64,000 nucleotides of DNA, from positions 434,001 through 498,000 of the forward strand of contig CP133595.1 of the NCBI GenBank assembly GCA_031200235.1. Reading direction: 5' to 3'. Of the stretch, positions 4,340 to 54,680 are shown in pieces. The DNA comes from Cuniculiplasma divulgatum. GTDB lineage: Archaea; Thermoplasmatota; Thermoplasmata; Thermoplasmatales; Thermoplasmataceae. The notes under the pieces were generated by a model. That model saw nothing but the letters and a program-made list of their open reading frames with translations. It ran no database searches and was not told where the DNA came from. The position numbers and the translations under genes are program-made. The first letter of the stretch is position 1, and each line of letters opens with the position of its first letter.

Positions 4340-4414
4340 TGTTGTCACCTTGTGTCTCTCCTGATCCTTTTCTGTATAATAACAGCTTTGAACTGAAGGA
4401 TACAGGTGAAAATT

Positions 4415-5398
4415 ATGGAAATGTATGGTTCACAGGGAATTGCGGATATTGTGGAACACATCAGGAACAGCATAGTCACTGTAAGGACCTCAAGATATGG
4501 GAGAGACCAGTGGGGAAGGATGGACAGGATAGTTGGTTCCGGGACAGGGATGATAATTAGCAGCAGCGGATACATTGCCACCAACTTTCATGTGGTGGCC
4601 GGATCATCAGGAATAACTGTCATAACACCTGACAATGAGAAACACAGTGCAAGGATAGTGGGCTACGATGATGCAACTGACCTTGCTGTCATAAAGATCA
4701 ATGCCCGGAACCTCAGTTCATGCAACTTCGGCGATTCGTCCGCCATCAGGCCTGGCCAGCCTGTGATTGCCGTGGGAAATGCGCTTGCACTTCCGGGAGG
4801 GCCTACCGTTTCATATGGAGTGGTAAGCGCCGTAGGCCGGATACTGCCGTGGTCCGAGTTCATCACTGAAGGGCTTGTTCAGACAGATGCTGCAATCAAT
4901 CCCGGCAACAGTGGCGGACCTCTTGCCACAGTGGACGGCATGGTCATAGGAATGAATACGGCCATTGTGCCCTTCGCTCAGGGCGTTGGCTTTGCCATAC
5001 CTTCCAATACAGTGAAGACGCTTATACAGCAGATGCTTGAACAGGGGAAGGTCCGCAGGCCGTGGATAGGGCTTTCCGGCGTTTCAACACAGGATCTTGC
5101 TGAAATGCAGGAAAAGACTGGACTGGCAGACGGAGTTATGGTAGCATCCACTGTACCGGGAGGACCTGCTGACATTGCGGGAATACGAAGAGGCGATATC
5201 ATCACAGAATTCAACGGAAAGGCGGTAAAGAGCATGAGGGATCTCATAGCCTCCATATCAGAACTGGGAACTGGAAATGAGGCGCCTGCGATCGTATACA
5301 GGGGAAGAAGGCACCTGGAAATTGCAGTTATCCCGGATCAGATGCCGCCAGACTACCTGCAGAGGTCCCACGGCGAAAGGCTCAGGCCATGGGACTGA
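4415..5398 (+). CDS. HtrA/DegP-like serine protease with PDZ domain, no signal peptide
   Basis: 327 residues from ATG 4415, chosen because GGTGA lies five bases before it (an in-frame GTG occurs at 4406). The trypsin-like domain has a complete catalytic triad: His in ATNFHVVAG (about residue 59), Asp in DATDLAVIK (about 89), Ser in NPGNSGGPL (about 166). A PDZ domain follows from about residue 225, with GGPADIAGIRRGDII. There is no signal peptide or membrane helix, unlike most DegP/DegQ proteins, so it should act in the cytosol, presumably in protein quality control. The next gene, formamidase, begins 36 bases downstream and may be cotranscribed. Confidence 0.93.
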   Translation: MEMYGSQGIADIVEHIRNSIVTVRTSRYGRDQWGRMDRIVGSGTGMIISSSGYIATNFHVVAGSSGITVITPDNEKHSARIVGYDDATDLAVIKINARNLSSCNFGDSSAIRPGQPVIAVGNALALPGGPTVSYGVVSAVGRILPWSEFITEGLVQTDAAINPGNSGGPLATVDGMVIGMNTAIVPFAQGVGFAIPSNTVKTLIQQMLEQGKVRRPWIGLSGVSTQDLAEMQEKTGLADGVMVASTVPGGPADIAGIRRGDIITEFNGKAVKSMRDLIASISELGTGNEAPAIVYRGRRHLEIAVIPDQMPPDYLQRSHGERLRPWD

Positions 5399-5434: not shown

Positions 5435-6364
5435 ATGATAAAAATTGACGGCCATCTTAAAGGCAACCTGCACATGAACTGGAGCCCCGGACTGAAACCT
5501 GTGGCAGAAATAGACCCGGGCAGCACAGTGCAGGTGGACATCCCGGATTCATCGACACTGCAGATCAGGGAAAACTTCACAACAGAAGACCTCAGGAATG
5601 TTGACGGGTCGCTTCTTGATGCTGCAGTTGGGCCAATATATGTCAAAGGATCGGAACCGGGGGACGTCCTGGAAGTGTCCATAGAAAAACTTGATGTTGC
5701 AAGCTGGGGCTGGACCATGGTCTCCTGGGACTTTGGTTTCATAAAGCACAGGTTCAGGGACAGGCTGCTCATATGGGATATTGACCGGGAAGAAGCCACA
5801 GCCAGGGGCGATTTCCTGAATGGCATCAGGATACCGGTTTCCCCGTTCCTTGGAATAATCGGCACCGCACCTTCTACTGGGAAACATGGGATGATACCGC
5901 CGCAGTACTTCGGTGGAAACATGGATAACAGGCTGCTTGGCCAGGGATCGAAAGTCTACCTTCCTGTGTCTGTTCCCGGTGCGCTTCTTTCGGTAGCAGA
6001 TCCCCATGCCGCCCAGGGTGATGGGGAGGTTTGCGGAACTGCCATTGAAACCATGGCCACAGCAAGGCTGAAAGTCAACCTAATGAAGGGTTCCTCCATA
6101 AGCGCTCCGCGTGCCTTTTCCAACGACCGTGGGCTTGGCCCAGTGGTTGTAACAATGGGGATTTCACCGGATATCCACACGGCATGCAGCGATGCCATTG
6201 AAAACATGATTGAGGAATTGCAAACCTATGGATTCACTGACGAAGAGGCATATGCGCTTTGCAGTGTTACCGGAAACCTCAGGATAAGCGAAGTGGTGGA
6301 CGAGCCGAATTACGTGGTGAGCATGCTGGTGCCCAAGGAGATTGCCAGGCAGAGATTGGCTTAG
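5435..6364 (+). CDS. Acetamidase/formamidase family amidohydrolase
   Basis: 309 residues spanning the FmdA/AmdA family. Recognisable blocks are the N-terminal DIPDSSTLQI strand, VGPIYVKGSEPGDVLEVSI, the metal-site region PPQYFGGNMDN, and SVADPHAAQGDGEVCGTAIE, which is the most conserved stretch of the family. The enzyme hydrolyses formamide or short-chain amides to ammonia and the acid in the cytosol. The ATG follows a TATA-like AT-rich stretch (attattattac) about 25 bases upstream. The stop overlaps by four bases with the stop of the convergent radical SAM gene. Confidence 0.92.
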   Translation: MIKIDGHLKGNLHMNWSPGLKPVAEIDPGSTVQVDIPDSSTLQIRENFTTEDLRNVDGSLLDAAVGPIYVKGSEPGDVLEVSIEKLDVASWGWTMVSWDFGFIKHRFRDRLLIWDIDREEATARGDFLNGIRIPVSPFLGIIGTAPSTGKHGMIPPQYFGGNMDNRLLGQGSKVYLPVSVPGALLSVADPHAAQGDGEVCGTAIETMATARLKVNLMKGSSISAPRAFSNDRGLGPVVVTMGISPDIHTACSDAIENMIEELQTYGFTDEEAYALCSVTGNLRISEVVDEPNYVVSMLVPKEIARQRLA

Positions 6365-7947: not shown

Positions 7948-8121
7948 ACAATATTAACTGATATCTGAGATTTAAGATTTACTAATATTAATATAATTAT
8001 ATGAAAGTAATTGTTCTTCTAAATATTATAGCATGTGAATATTTGCGTATTCAATCGCCGCCATACATTAAGAATTAACATGAAAAAACAAGGAAATATT
8101 TATTTGTAGAGTGCCCTGCAT

Positions 8122-9114
8122 ATGATGTTGAGTGACTGCTGGTATTGTGGGAAGGAGATATCCGGATATGTCTTCAGGATTGCTGGAAATGACTGTGATA
8201 TAAACTGTGCCAATGAACAGATAACCAGGGCCAAGGATCTTCTGGGCAGATTGAATAGCGAGATCGATTCTTTCGTTGGGTTCGGCCTTGGATTTGAGAA
8301 ACCCGAGTTTTTCTGGTACGTTTTCGTTGACGATCCGGGAATGCTTCAGTACCTGAAGGATGAATTCAGTGCTGCCCAGCTTGGATTCAGCATATATCCC
8401 ATTGTCATAGAGATCCCGAATCAGATGGAACCTGAAATGATACCGGCAATACCTGACAAATTCATAATGGGCGGGACATCCATCGGCCATCTGAATGCCT
8501 CCACTACCGGGACACTGGGCGGGGTACTCAGGATGGGAGAAAGGAAATATGTTGTTTCAACTGCATCAGTTCTCGCGCCTGCAGGGGCAATGATAGGGGA
8601 TAAGGTTGTTCACCCTTCCAGGCCGGATTCCCCAAGAAGAGGAGTGATCCTGGGCAGGCTCGTGGTGATCTCCAGGATGGCCCCCAACTCCTCCAACGAT
8701 CTGGATGCCGCCATAGCCGAAATAGACCCGGAAATACTTACAACTCCCCGCGTCAAGAATATAGGAGTGCCCAGTGAGGCCAGCGAACCACACATAGGAA
8801 TGAGCGTCAGGAAAAGCGGGAGAACCACCGGATTCACTGAAGGGAAAATACTCTGCACTGATGTCAGGATGAAACGCATTCAGGACGGCAGGCTTTACTA
8901 TATTAATGATCATTTCATCGTGATGGGCGAGGCGGGCAATTTCGCGGAGCCTGGGGACGAGGGATCACTGGTGATGGATAACAGGAATGCTGTTACAGGA
9001 ATGGTTGAGCTTGCAATCCATGGGATGGCTGTATGTTCCAGGGGCACGGTCCTGCTTGAAAGGTTTGGCTTTGTTCCCCCTGAATGCTTTGAGCCCTTTG
9101 AAGATGAGATGTGA
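8122..9114 (+). CDS. Degenerate trypsin-fold protein (probable pseudoprotease) with N-terminal Cys motif
   Basis: 330 residues. The N-terminus has CWYC (C6, C9) then C25 and C29, a likely metal-binding knuckle. From about residue 128 a chymotrypsin-like domain follows the order of bacterial and plant Nal1-like peptidases: TTGTLGG, KYVVSTASVLA, NDLDAAIAEID, KSGRTTGFTEG, AEPGDEGSLVMD. The usual catalytic His of the HVLA motif is Ser149 and the nucleophile of GDSGS is Glu280; only Asp195 remains. It therefore should not cleave peptides by the normal mechanism. A TATA-like box at about 8095-8103 sits 25 bases before the ATG (leaderless). A Get3/ArsA gene follows 83 bases downstream. Confidence 0.75.
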   Translation: MMLSDCWYCGKEISGYVFRIAGNDCDINCANEQITRAKDLLGRLNSEIDSFVGFGLGFEKPEFFWYVFVDDPGMLQYLKDEFSAAQLGFSIYPIVIEIPNQMEPEMIPAIPDKFIMGGTSIGHLNASTTGTLGGVLRMGERKYVVSTASVLAPAGAMIGDKVVHPSRPDSPRRGVILGRLVVISRMAPNSSNDLDAAIAEIDPEILTTPRVKNIGVPSEASEPHIGMSVRKSGRTTGFTEGKILCTDVRMKRIQDGRLYYINDHFIVMGEAGNFAEPGDEGSLVMDNRNAVTGMVELAIHGMAVCSRGTVLLERFGFVPPECFEPFEDEM

Positions 9115-9197: not shown

Positions 9198-10385
9198 ATG
9201 GCAAAGGTCGAAAAGAAAACTGGAAAAACAAGAATAATACTTTTCACGGGAAAGGGGGGCGTTGGAAAGACCAGCGTGGCGGCTTCCACTGCAATGCTAC
9301 TGGCCTCCAGAGGAAAGAGGACTCTCATAATATCAACGGATCCGGCACACAGCCTTTCTGATGCTTTCGGGGTACAGATAGGGGCCGCTGTTACGGAGAT
9401 CACACACAACCTGCACGCCCAGGAGATCAGCGTCATAGAGGCCATAAACGACCACTGGGAGAATCTCAAGGGGTACCTGACAGGGCTGTTCAGTTCGCAG
9501 GGCTTGGACCCGATTTCTTCTGAAGAGATTGCCACATTACCGGGATTTGATGAGGCTTCGGAGCTTCTTTATGTCAATGACTACATGAAAGAGGGGAAAT
9601 ATGACGTGATCGTCATGGATAGTGCTCCAACCGGAGAGTCGCTGAAGCTATTATCATTCCCGGAAGCAATGTCATGGTATATGGAGAAGCTCTTCCCCAT
9701 AAGCAGGACCACTGCAAGGATTGTCAGGCCCATAATGAAGCCTTTCTCCAGCATACCGCTTCCGGACGATTCCATTTTCAAGAGCATGGAGGGCCTGTAT
9801 GAGAGCCTCAGGGAAGTCAGGGGAATTCTTACAGATGAGAGCGTAACATCAATCAGGCTGGTGTGCACTCCAGACAGGATGTCCATGAATGAGACCCGGA
9901 GGGCATACACATATCTTCTTCTGTACGGTTATCCTGTTGATGCAGTCATAGTCAACAAGATATTCAGATCCAACACGGGTGACTTCTTCCAGAACTGGAG
10001 AAAGTCGCAGGAGGAGATAATGGCGGAAATTGACAATTCATTCCAGGATCTCCATATTTTCAAGCTGTATCTTTCAAAGGATGAACCAACAGGAATGGAA
10101 CGCCTTTCTGAAATGGGGAATGATCTTTATGGCAATCAGGATCCACTGGAAGTTTTTGCACACAGCATCCCAATAAGCTATGATAAGCATGATAACTTCG
10201 TTACGGCTCGCATAAGACTGCCATTTGCCACCAAGGAAAGGCTGAACCTCTATAACAAGGGAGGGGAGCTTGTCATTGAGCTTGATAACTGGAGGAGGGT
10301 TTTCTATCTTCCGCAGACACTGGCAAACAAAAACCCCACGGCGGCAGAGTTTAATAACGGTTACCTTCTTATAGACCTGAAGTGA
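9198..10385 (+). CDS. Get3/ArsA-family ATPase with C-terminal HSP20-like domain
   Basis: 395 residues. The deviant Walker A is GKGGVGKTS at 18-26; the switch segment ISTDPAHSLSDAF and the signature DSAPTGESLKLL (about 141-152) define the ArsA/Get3 family. One ATPase domain only, so it acts as a dimer. The last 70 residues (FVTARIRLPFA to YLLIDLK) look like the beta-sandwich ArsA_HSP20 domain. I see no CxxC dimer zinc motif and no metalloid-binding cysteines, so tail-anchored protein targeting or chaperone work fits better than arsenite export. GAGGAA precedes the ATG and a TATA-like TTATACAA is upstream. One base separates it from the next small gene. Confidence 0.9.
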   Translation: MAKVEKKTGKTRIILFTGKGGVGKTSVAASTAMLLASRGKRTLIISTDPAHSLSDAFGVQIGAAVTEITHNLHAQEISVIEAINDHWENLKGYLTGLFSSQGLDPISSEEIATLPGFDEASELLYVNDYMKEGKYDVIVMDSAPTGESLKLLSFPEAMSWYMEKLFPISRTTARIVRPIMKPFSSIPLPDDSIFKSMEGLYESLREVRGILTDESVTSIRLVCTPDRMSMNETRRAYTYLLLYGYPVDAVIVNKIFRSNTGDFFQNWRKSQEEIMAEIDNSFQDLHIFKLYLSKDEPTGMERLSEMGNDLYGNQDPLEVFAHSIPISYDKHDNFVTARIRLPFATKERLNLYNKGGELVIELDNWRRVFYLPQTLANKNPTAAEFNNGYLLIDLK

Positions 10386-10386
10386 A

Positions 10387-10590
10387 ATGACAGCACAGGA
10401 AGATGACTCGAAGGATTTTGTTCTGGAAATAAGGGTCAGGGTTCCAAAGGGGCTTTTGGAGCTTGCCCAGAGGACCCTTAAAGATGCGATGGATGTAGCC
10501 GGAGATGTTGCGAAAATTGGCAGGCAGGTTGTGTCTGGGAAATCCAGCGAACCTGAGAAGCCAAAGGTAAAGAAAATGGAAATCAAATGA
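10387..10590 (+). CDS. Small hypothetical protein, partner of Get3/ArsA
   Basis: 67 residues, starting one base after the stop of the ATPase gene, so the two are surely translated from one message. It has an acidic N-terminus, a short strand (VLEIRVRVP), a predicted helix from KGLLELAQRTL to IGRQVV, and a lysine-rich tail. There is no membrane segment. I do not recognise the family. The context suggests a small accessory or cofactor of the Get3-like ATPase, which is inference from position only. Confidence 0.7.
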   Translation: MTAQEDDSKDFVLEIRVRVPKGLLELAQRTLKDAMDVAGDVAKIGRQVVSGKSSEPEKPKVKKMEIK

Positions 10591-10840
10591 ATTCCATTGC
10601 AACATCCTGCCTGGAATATGGTCAGCAGAAGCATTGAGGCGGATCCTCATCATTGCGTGCCAGGGCAGATGCAAAGATCCATTCACTATGCCATAGGAAG
10701 TGAATTGAACGCGCCTCAGGCTGGAAATTTTAGATTTATTCTGTCAACAACATTAAATTAGGCTGCAGGATGAATTCACATCAGTGCATTTACATTTTCC
10801 ATTCCATGGTTTTCACTATAAAGCAGGTAAGTGGAACGAT
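10591..10840. other. Intergenic stretch without a recognised gene
   Basis: About 250 bases between the small partner gene and tRNA-Glu. No open frame of convincing composition, no long inverted repeat and no T-run terminator was seen. The part nearest 10720-10770 is AT-rich. Confidence 0.5.
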
Positions 10841-10914
10841 GCTCCGGCCGGGATTTGGACCCGAGTCGAGGGATTGAGAGTCCCTTATGCTTGGCCGTGC
10901 TACACCACCGGAGC
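10841..10914 (-). tRNA. tRNA-Glu (anticodon CTC)
   Basis: Read on the minus strand, the 7-bp acceptor stem GCTCCGG/CCGGAGC closes perfectly. The anticodon stem AGGGA/TCCCT encloses the loop CTCTCAA, giving anticodon CTC (codon GAG, Glu). The T arm has GGGTCCAAATCCC. The D arm GTGTAGCACGGCC resembles other archaeal tRNA-Glu genes. CCA is not encoded. A TATA-like AAATAAAT lies roughly 25-32 bases upstream, around 10939-10946. No intron is needed to fold it. Confidence 0.95.
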
Positions 10915-53729: not shown

Positions 53730-54680
53730 ATGAATTCTCGGGAATCATTCCTTGCTGCTAACAACCTCGACATGGAGCTGGTAATAGAGAATGAGGGAAA
53801 TTTCCCTATTGAGGCTTTTAGCCGAGATCACGATCTTTTCGTCCCTGCCGTCCTTTCTGCCGGTAATGGAAAAGTATCCATGATGTATTATTTCTCGGAA
53901 GCAGCTGTGAAGGGAAAGAGAGATGTTGAAATTTTTCTCAACAGGTATGGGGCCAGGAATAACGGGGGCGTACTGACACTTTACGGTTCAAGCTCCAGAT
54001 TCCCCCAGTATAATATGTTAAAGAGAATTCTTGACATACCCTCAGTGCTGAACTATGCTTCCTATGTATGGAAAGGCAAGCATTATTTCCACTTCATATT
54101 CAGGCATGAATTTCTCCGCCAGGTTTCGGACACGCTTCTTTCATCCGAGGTCCCTTCCGGGATAAATGTACATCGCCTTTCCGGGAATGACAGGATGATT
54201 GACGTCCTGAAATGGATAGACAGCCACGTGGAATTATACGAAGTAACAGTTGATACCATCCCGCCGCCTGAGGAACTGTCTCCTGAAAGAAACCCCATTG
54301 GACTGGAATGGGTTCGGGAGATAAAGTACAGAACCACGGACAGCTCCATCAAGGCTGTTTATTTTTCAGGTTCGGAGAGGGTGAGGGATGACGCAATGAA
54401 AATCGTGGACAATATATATGAAATGGAAACCAGAAACGAGATGCTGGGCTTCCTGTCGTCCAGCGACCACAGCATAATGATACCGTCTTTCCGGCGGATT
54501 CACACCCTGTCCGGAGGGATCTTTACCATAACTCTCATACTTCCCAAATCCTTTGTTTCCGACTATATCAAAAAGATTTCCAGATCGCGTAAAGACTTCT
54601 TGAACTGGAGTGTTAAAATTCGGAATGTGAGGCCGTTTGCCTCCATGATGAAGGGAAATGAAGATGCCGGTGTGTCCTGA
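53730..54680 (+). CDS. Hypothetical protein
   Basis: 316 residues, mixed alpha-beta with a two-part look: an N-terminal region (VIENEGNFPIEAFSRDHDLFVPAV, MMYYFSEAAVKG) and a C-terminal region (IKAVYFSGSERVRDDAMKIVDNIYEM). I do not recognise it; the C-terminal part vaguely resembles regulator effector domains such as those of bacterio-opsin-activator-like proteins, but no HTH is visible. TATA-like TTTTTTTATAG lies about 42 bases upstream. An HTH regulator follows after 123 bases. Confidence 0.7.
   Translation: MNSRESFLAANNLDMELVIENEGNFPIEAFSRDHDLFVPAVLSAGNGKVSMMYYFSEAAVKGKRDVEIFLNRYGARNNGGVLTLYGSSSRFPQYNMLKRILDIPSVLNYASYVWKGKHYFHFIFRHEFLRQVSDTLLSSEVPSGINVHRLSGNDRMIDVLKWIDSHVELYEVTVDTIPPPEELSPERNPIGLEWVREIKYRTTDSSIKAVYFSGSERVRDDAMKIVDNIYEMETRNEMLGFLSSSDHSIMIPSFRRIHTLSGGIFTITLILPKSFVSDYIKKISRSRKDFLNWSVKIRNVRPFASMMKGNEDAGVS

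Follow-up and report, generated by a model that had tools for sequence, protein, structure and literature searches.

A Nal1-Like Protein with the Sequence Features of a Serine Pseudoprotease in Cuniculiplasma divulgatum and Its Relatives

Closest Described Systems and the Locus

Serine pseudoproteases are already known in animals and have been described for magnetotactic bacteria, and they generally serve as ligands, cofactors, or scaffolds (PMC13194640). The animal representatives, such as haptoglobin, hepatocyte growth factor, and protein Z (PMC13194640), use a chymotrypsin fold without catalysis for binding, as we propose below for the archaeal protein studied here, although they are secreted S1A proteins with no close sequence relation to it. 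In prokaryotes, the degenerate trypsin-like protein MamO activates the HtrA protease MamE and binds a transition metal without catalysis (PMC4794232). The best structural matches of our protein are rice NAL1 and the Nal1-like proteases (PF25819; PDB 7y77, 8hau, 8pmm); plant NAL1 degrades TOPLESS-type corepressors (PMC12915138). In the limited open-access literature searched, no description of an archaeal cytosolic pseudoprotease of the Nal1-like family was found.

The window analyzed here is a stretch of 64,000 nucleotides from Cuniculiplasma divulgatum (contig CP133595.1), and the gene under study, whose product is called pNal1 in this work, occupies positions 8122–9114 on the plus strand. 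It begins with an ATG codon, contains no internal stops, and encodes 330 amino acids; a genome search found only this one such gene in the source genome. A TATA-like box (TATTTATT, 8098–8105, plus strand) was recognized by inspection approximately 24 nt 5′ of the start codon and is unchanged in the 96% identical orthologue of genome G002, which suggests that pNal1 has its own promoter and a near-leaderless transcript.

Family Assignment and Fold

The sequence-only reading of the window had noted the motif order of trypsin-like peptidases (GTLGG, VVSTASVLA, DLDAAIAEID, KSGRTTGFTEG, GDEGSLV), and these motifs are present as quoted. According to Pfam, pNal1 matches Nal1_C (PF25819) with 27.5 bits (cut-off 26.1) and Trypsin with 24.2 bits (cut-off 20.6), while the orthologues of G003 and G019 score below the PF25819 cut-off; NCBIfam contained no match for pNal1. 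A profile built from six intact members, with no pNal1 in it, matched the window protein at 3.9e-28 and retrieved exactly 13 pNal1 genes (4e-28 to 3e-45) from the 117 genomes of the order. The homology is thereby firm, and these genomes yielded no intact paralogue. A profile–profile comparison gave a probability of 99.9 and an E-value of 1e-36 over 209 columns. Against the PDB, phmmer with pNal1 returned only weak matches to NAL1 (E 0.44), which improved to 3e-5 with the profile of the clade.

An AlphaFold run on the 96% identical orthologue alone reached a pLDDT of 30 and was replaced by an alignment with 40 relatives from viral contigs. With 42 sequences, the model had a pTM of 0.80 and a mean pLDDT of 79, the trypsin domain lying mostly above 80; as the input alignment consisted mostly of intact relatives, the model partly mirrors their fold. 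When this model was compared with the PDB by Foldseek, NAL1 chains ranked first (E about 5e-12), and S. griseus protease B was matched with a TM of 0.84 by target length and an rmsd of 2.6. The profile searches and the model thus agree on the chymotrypsin fold proposed earlier and, judged by sequence and model together, pNal1 is by descent a member of the Nal1-like family with a chymotrypsin-fold domain (PA-clan fold). Descent from HtrA, the origin of MamO, does not apply, and pNal1 groups with the Nal1-like proteins in the Pfam, profile, and tree analyses. With the NAL1-like proteases it shares the GTLG, VDAA, KxGRTTGxT, and GDxGS motifs as well as an N-terminal module (residues ~51–100; 8272–8421, plus strand), which by inspection aligns with the 'VxGVGxG...' module found in relatives from bacteria and archaea and is also present in intact Nal1-like proteins.

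Orthologues, Outside Relatives, and Selection

To find orthologues, 60 related genomes were searched with the protein and 117 genomes of the order with a profile. Thirteen full-length pNal1 proteins were identified, one per genome, all within one Thermoplasmatota family: three in genus g1 (G000, G002, G003), five in g16 (G019, G035, G103, G104, G105), two each in g7 (G010, G028) and g5 (G008, G026), and one in G024, a genome assigned to g3. In G001, a 22-aa piece of pNal1 is located at a contig end. At synonymous sites, the contig carrying pNal1 in G024 lies closer to G010 (g7) than G010 does to G028, the other g7 genome (L006/L018), and G024 additionally contains a g16-like HtrA/Ta1207 contig; its bin is probably mixed, to judge from these sequences, making the occurrence of pNal1 in g3 doubtful.

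Outside the family, a phylum-wide search of 390 genomes added only two distant proteins, L033 (G198) and L034 (G179), both from another Thermoplasmatota family. They follow the same plan as pNal1, with the N-terminal module and the trypsin domain, and they begin with a hydrophobic segment and keep His, Asp, and Ser intact. Five bacterial plasmid proteins of the Nal1-like type likewise have an intact triad. Viral contigs scanned with the intact profile contributed 54 further Nal1-like loci, and the 40 relatives used from them have His at position 149 and Ser at position 280 in 40/40 cases; one of the two patterns of the scan contains His, which is therefore favored by construction, while Ser is in neither pattern. 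Viral homologues of pNal1 itself were not found in the viral sequence searches. Intact Nal1-like serine proteases are common among IMG/VR contigs, with 54 loci from one scan (L098–L151).

The pNal1 clade is monophyletic with a support of 99, and its members are under strong purifying selection: dN/dS is 0.041 between G000 and G002, and the g7/G024 and g5 pairs combine a dN of 0.02–0.06 with a dS ranging from 0.9 to near saturation.

Replacement of the Catalytic Residues

The active-site positions were compared in an alignment of 59 sequences, composed of the 13 pNal1 proteins and 46 outside relatives from viral contigs, plasmids, and two archaea. Ser149 (codon TCA, 8566–8568, plus strand) and Glu280 (codon GAG, 8959–8961, plus strand, within GDEG[SA]) had been read from the window as standing at the sites of the catalytic His and Ser, and the alignment bears this out, with His in 46/46 and Ser in 46/46 outside relatives in the respective columns. 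Among the 13 pNal1 proteins, position 149 is occupied by Ser (9), Gln (2), or Arg (2) and by His in none, whereas position 280 is Glu in 13/13. The catalytic Asp is kept at position 195 (codon GAT, 8704–8706, plus strand) in all 59 sequences. With S149, D195, and E280, pNal1 lacks the His-Asp-Ser triad of the Nal1-like and PA-clan serine peptidases and, on its sequence, is not filed among the Nal1-like peptidases. It instead has the sequence features of a serine pseudoprotease, the protease fold being kept and the catalytic residues lost according to alignment and model, with the loss conserved in 13/13 orthologues under purifying selection.

The two replaced positions have evolved differently. 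Site 280 ranks as the 15th slowest among the 202 sites of the domain, while the rate at site 149 is intermediate (68th). Glu280 is encoded by both GAA and GAG among the orthologues, which means that the codon kept changing and the residue did not. Neutral decay after the loss of catalysis is not expected to have kept Glu280 so tightly, and because the clade is monophyletic, one ancestral replacement at this position suffices. At position 149, the presence of Ser, Gln, and Arg, together with serine codons of both the TCN and AGY types, indicates repeated changes that never led back to His. A His to Ser replacement also occurs in azurocidin; Glu at the Ser position, to our knowledge, is not a documented pattern among animal serine pseudoproteases. 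pNal1 offers a clean case, a single monophyletic clade in which the nucleophile was replaced by Glu once and then held fixed while the neighboring position wandered, with no intact paralogue seen in the order, so that the purpose of a Glu retained where the nucleophile used to be becomes directly testable.

Proposed Function and the Asp195/Glu280 Pair

With the nucleophile replaced by Glu and no general-base His, we infer that pNal1 is unable to cut peptides, and it is probably a non-peptidase binding protein as far as its sequence tells. The former substrate cleft would serve as a surface for binding a protein or a ligand, and a putative buried polar cluster, Asp195-(Ser/Gln/Arg149)-Glu280, would take the place of the triad. 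The suggestion that this gene encodes a purposeful pseudoenzyme, perhaps a binding module, fits well with the loss of His and Ser in 13/13 orthologues, the fixed Glu280, the purifying selection, and the retained fold. Taken as a whole, the best explanation, which we consider reasonably likely, is a serine pseudoprotease that selection has maintained throughout the lineage and that acts in the cytosol in a binding role, perhaps as a cofactor of HtrA.

The same residues could also be read as a re-wired enzyme, in which the carboxylate pair of Asp195 and Glu280, with or without a metal ion, catalyzes a different reaction. Both residues are invariant in 13/13 orthologues and rank with the slowest-evolving sites, although drift would be expected at position 280 if catalysis had been lost neutrally; no Ser codon can be turned into GAA or GAG by fewer than two base changes, pointing to a state that was reached and then held; and residue 149 remains polar. 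However, a structural or binding role accounts for this fixation equally well, and position 149, beside the pair, accepts Ser, Gln, and Arg. We also know of no PA-clan enzyme that uses an Asp/Glu carboxylate pair, which counts further against this reading, and we regard it as quite unlikely. That an active or metal-binding site has newly arisen from the pair, making pNal1 a cytosolic enzyme or a metal-responsive regulator and not an inert scaffold, seems unlikely as well.

Probable N-Terminal Cysteine Finger and Cellular Location

Upstream of the shared module, pNal1 carries a predicted zinc finger of treble-clef-like type (residues 6–29, C6-x2-C9 ... C25-x3-C29; 8137–8208, plus strand), proposed from the invariant cysteines and a low-confidence model. 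The four-cysteine N-terminus described from the window alone holds in part: C6, C9, and C29 are invariant in 13/13 orthologues, while residue 25 is Cys in g1 and g16 and Phe or Tyr, with a His close by, in the five orthologues of g7, g5, and G024. The modeled N-terminus, of low confidence, consists of a beta-hairpin followed by a helix from residue 27, a layout that would fit a treble clef. Residues 1–50 of three orthologues yielded no significant finger family in Pfam, including zf-C4_ClpX and zf-FLZ; two had no match and the best E-value of the third was 0.12 (zf-C4_ClpX). Nevertheless, from its cysteines and modeled shape, the finger is probably a binding site for zinc or another metal.

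Unlike L033 and L034, pNal1 shows no hydrophobic N-terminus in hydropathy plots, and its finger stands where these intact archaeal relatives have a signal peptide. Since this signal peptide is missing, we infer that pNal1 acts in the cytosol. The NAL1-like relatives examined retain His and Ser, and pNal1 differs from them in its altered active site and in the finger.

The HtrA Neighbor

An intact HtrA-type serine protease with trypsin and PDZ domains (Pfam Trypsin_2 1.6e-32, PDZ; NCBIfam degP_htrA_DO) is encoded at 4406–5398 on the plus strand, 2.7 kb upstream of pNal1. According to its hydropathy, it has no hydrophobic N-terminal segment and is apparently cytosolic. It is followed by a gene of the FmdA/AmdA (acetamidase/formamidase) family (5435–6364, plus strand; Pfam 1.1e-57), and a radical-SAM gene in inverted orientation also separates HtrA from pNal1 in the window. 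HtrA lies upstream of pNal1 on the same strand and in the same order in g1 (G000, G003) and in 5/5 g16 genomes, and it is also beside the contig-end pNal1 fragment in G001. The genes in between differ: either FmdA/AmdA stands there, with or without the inverted radical-SAM gene, or an inverted phosphatase gene does; FmdA/AmdA occupies this place in g1, G035, and G105, and in the latter two genomes HtrA, FmdA, and pNal1 share one strand with short gaps. In G001, HtrA on contig C105 is split into two frames by one stop, unlike its counterpart in G000 (L023/L083), which could be an assembly error or a real loss.

The linkage of HtrA to pNal1 holds in two of the four genera, g1 and g16, and not in g5 or g7. 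Across genomes, HtrA was present in 11/14 with pNal1 versus 26/57 without it (p = 0.026, in a test that ignores shared ancestry), and it also occurs where pNal1 is missing. By gene order and distribution, HtrA is a better candidate neighbor for pNal1 than the Get3 gene that follows. By analogy with MamO and MamE, pNal1 might activate or feed the upstream HtrA as a non-catalytic cofactor, a partnership that is possible although doubtful. MamO, as an inactive prokaryotic trypsin-like protein tied to an active HtrA and to a metal, is a conceptual precedent; it differs in being a magnetosome protein of HtrA descent that kept His and Asp and changed Ser to Thr, whereas pNal1 lost both His and Ser. 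If the link to HtrA is true, it would represent a further independent origin of a pair composed of HtrA and a pseudoprotease.

Ta1207-Family and Get3 Neighbors

A different partner would be a Ta1207-family protein (PF19020), with pNal1 acting in a Thermoplasmata-specific regulatory or structural assembly and not as a protease cofactor. In g7, the gene directly downstream of pNal1 belongs to this family and not to HtrA: it starts about 8 nt after pNal1 in G010, as it does in G024, and overlaps pNal1 in G028. Moreover, three Ta1207 genes are situated upstream of HtrA and pNal1 in G019, G103, and G104, and one in G035 and G105. This is, however, a multi-copy family with 4–14 copies in most of these genomes, which makes proximity weak evidence; the nearest copy in the window is 45 kb away, in g5 the family is not adjacent to pNal1, and the G024 contig may be misbinned. 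A Ta1207 partnership is, in our estimation, improbable. The Ta1207-family gene of the window is located at 53730–54680, and its product had no match in the PDB. Ta1207 genes number 1–14 per genome across the 15 genomes of the archaeal family that were checked, and 14 control genomes have none; the open-access literature searched offered nothing useful on Ta1207 or Nal1-like archaeal proteins.

Directly downstream of pNal1, as noted from the window alone, a Get3/ArsA ATPase with an HSP20-like tail (9198–10385; Pfam 1e-93 and 1.6e-18) and a 67-aa ORF (10387–10590) follow on the same plus strand. A joint function with these proteins, for example in the targeting of tail-anchored proteins, would draw on the same-strand adjacency in the window, G002, and G003, and the genome distribution largely rules it out. 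The two genes adjoin pNal1 in g1 only; a search at 1e-20 detected no Get3 in any g16 genome (0/5) or in G024, all of which carry pNal1, and Get3 is unlinked to pNal1 in g5 and g7. Over 71 genomes no association is seen, with Get3 in 7/14 genomes with pNal1 and 30/57 without it (p = 1), which speaks against the link to Get3 suggested earlier. The 67-aa ORF travels with Get3 and not with pNal1, as tblastn located it beside Get3 in g4, g5, and g11, also where pNal1 lies elsewhere or is absent. The 83-nt gap upstream of Get3 contains a TATA-like sequence, which suggests a separate Get3 promoter. Because the 67-aa ORF tracks Get3 and the distribution of Get3 is independent of pNal1, the Get3 unit lies beside pNal1 and is not part of a pNal1 operon, and a working partnership between them is very unlikely. 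Finally, nothing was found in favor of an error in the sequence, a local mutation, or gene decay, which have a negligible probability and were ruled out, given full-length frames and matching residues across 13 independent assemblies, strong purifying selection, and an alignment at positions 149, 195, and 280 in which relatives with intact His and Ser were seen only outside the order.

The occurrence of Get3/ArsA with the HSP20-like tail is patchy in itself; it was not found at 1e-20 in 34/71 genomes, G019 and other near-complete genomes among them (L051–L080). Just downstream of the Get3 and 67-aa pair, a tRNA-Glu (CTC) gene is located at 10840–10914 on the minus strand.
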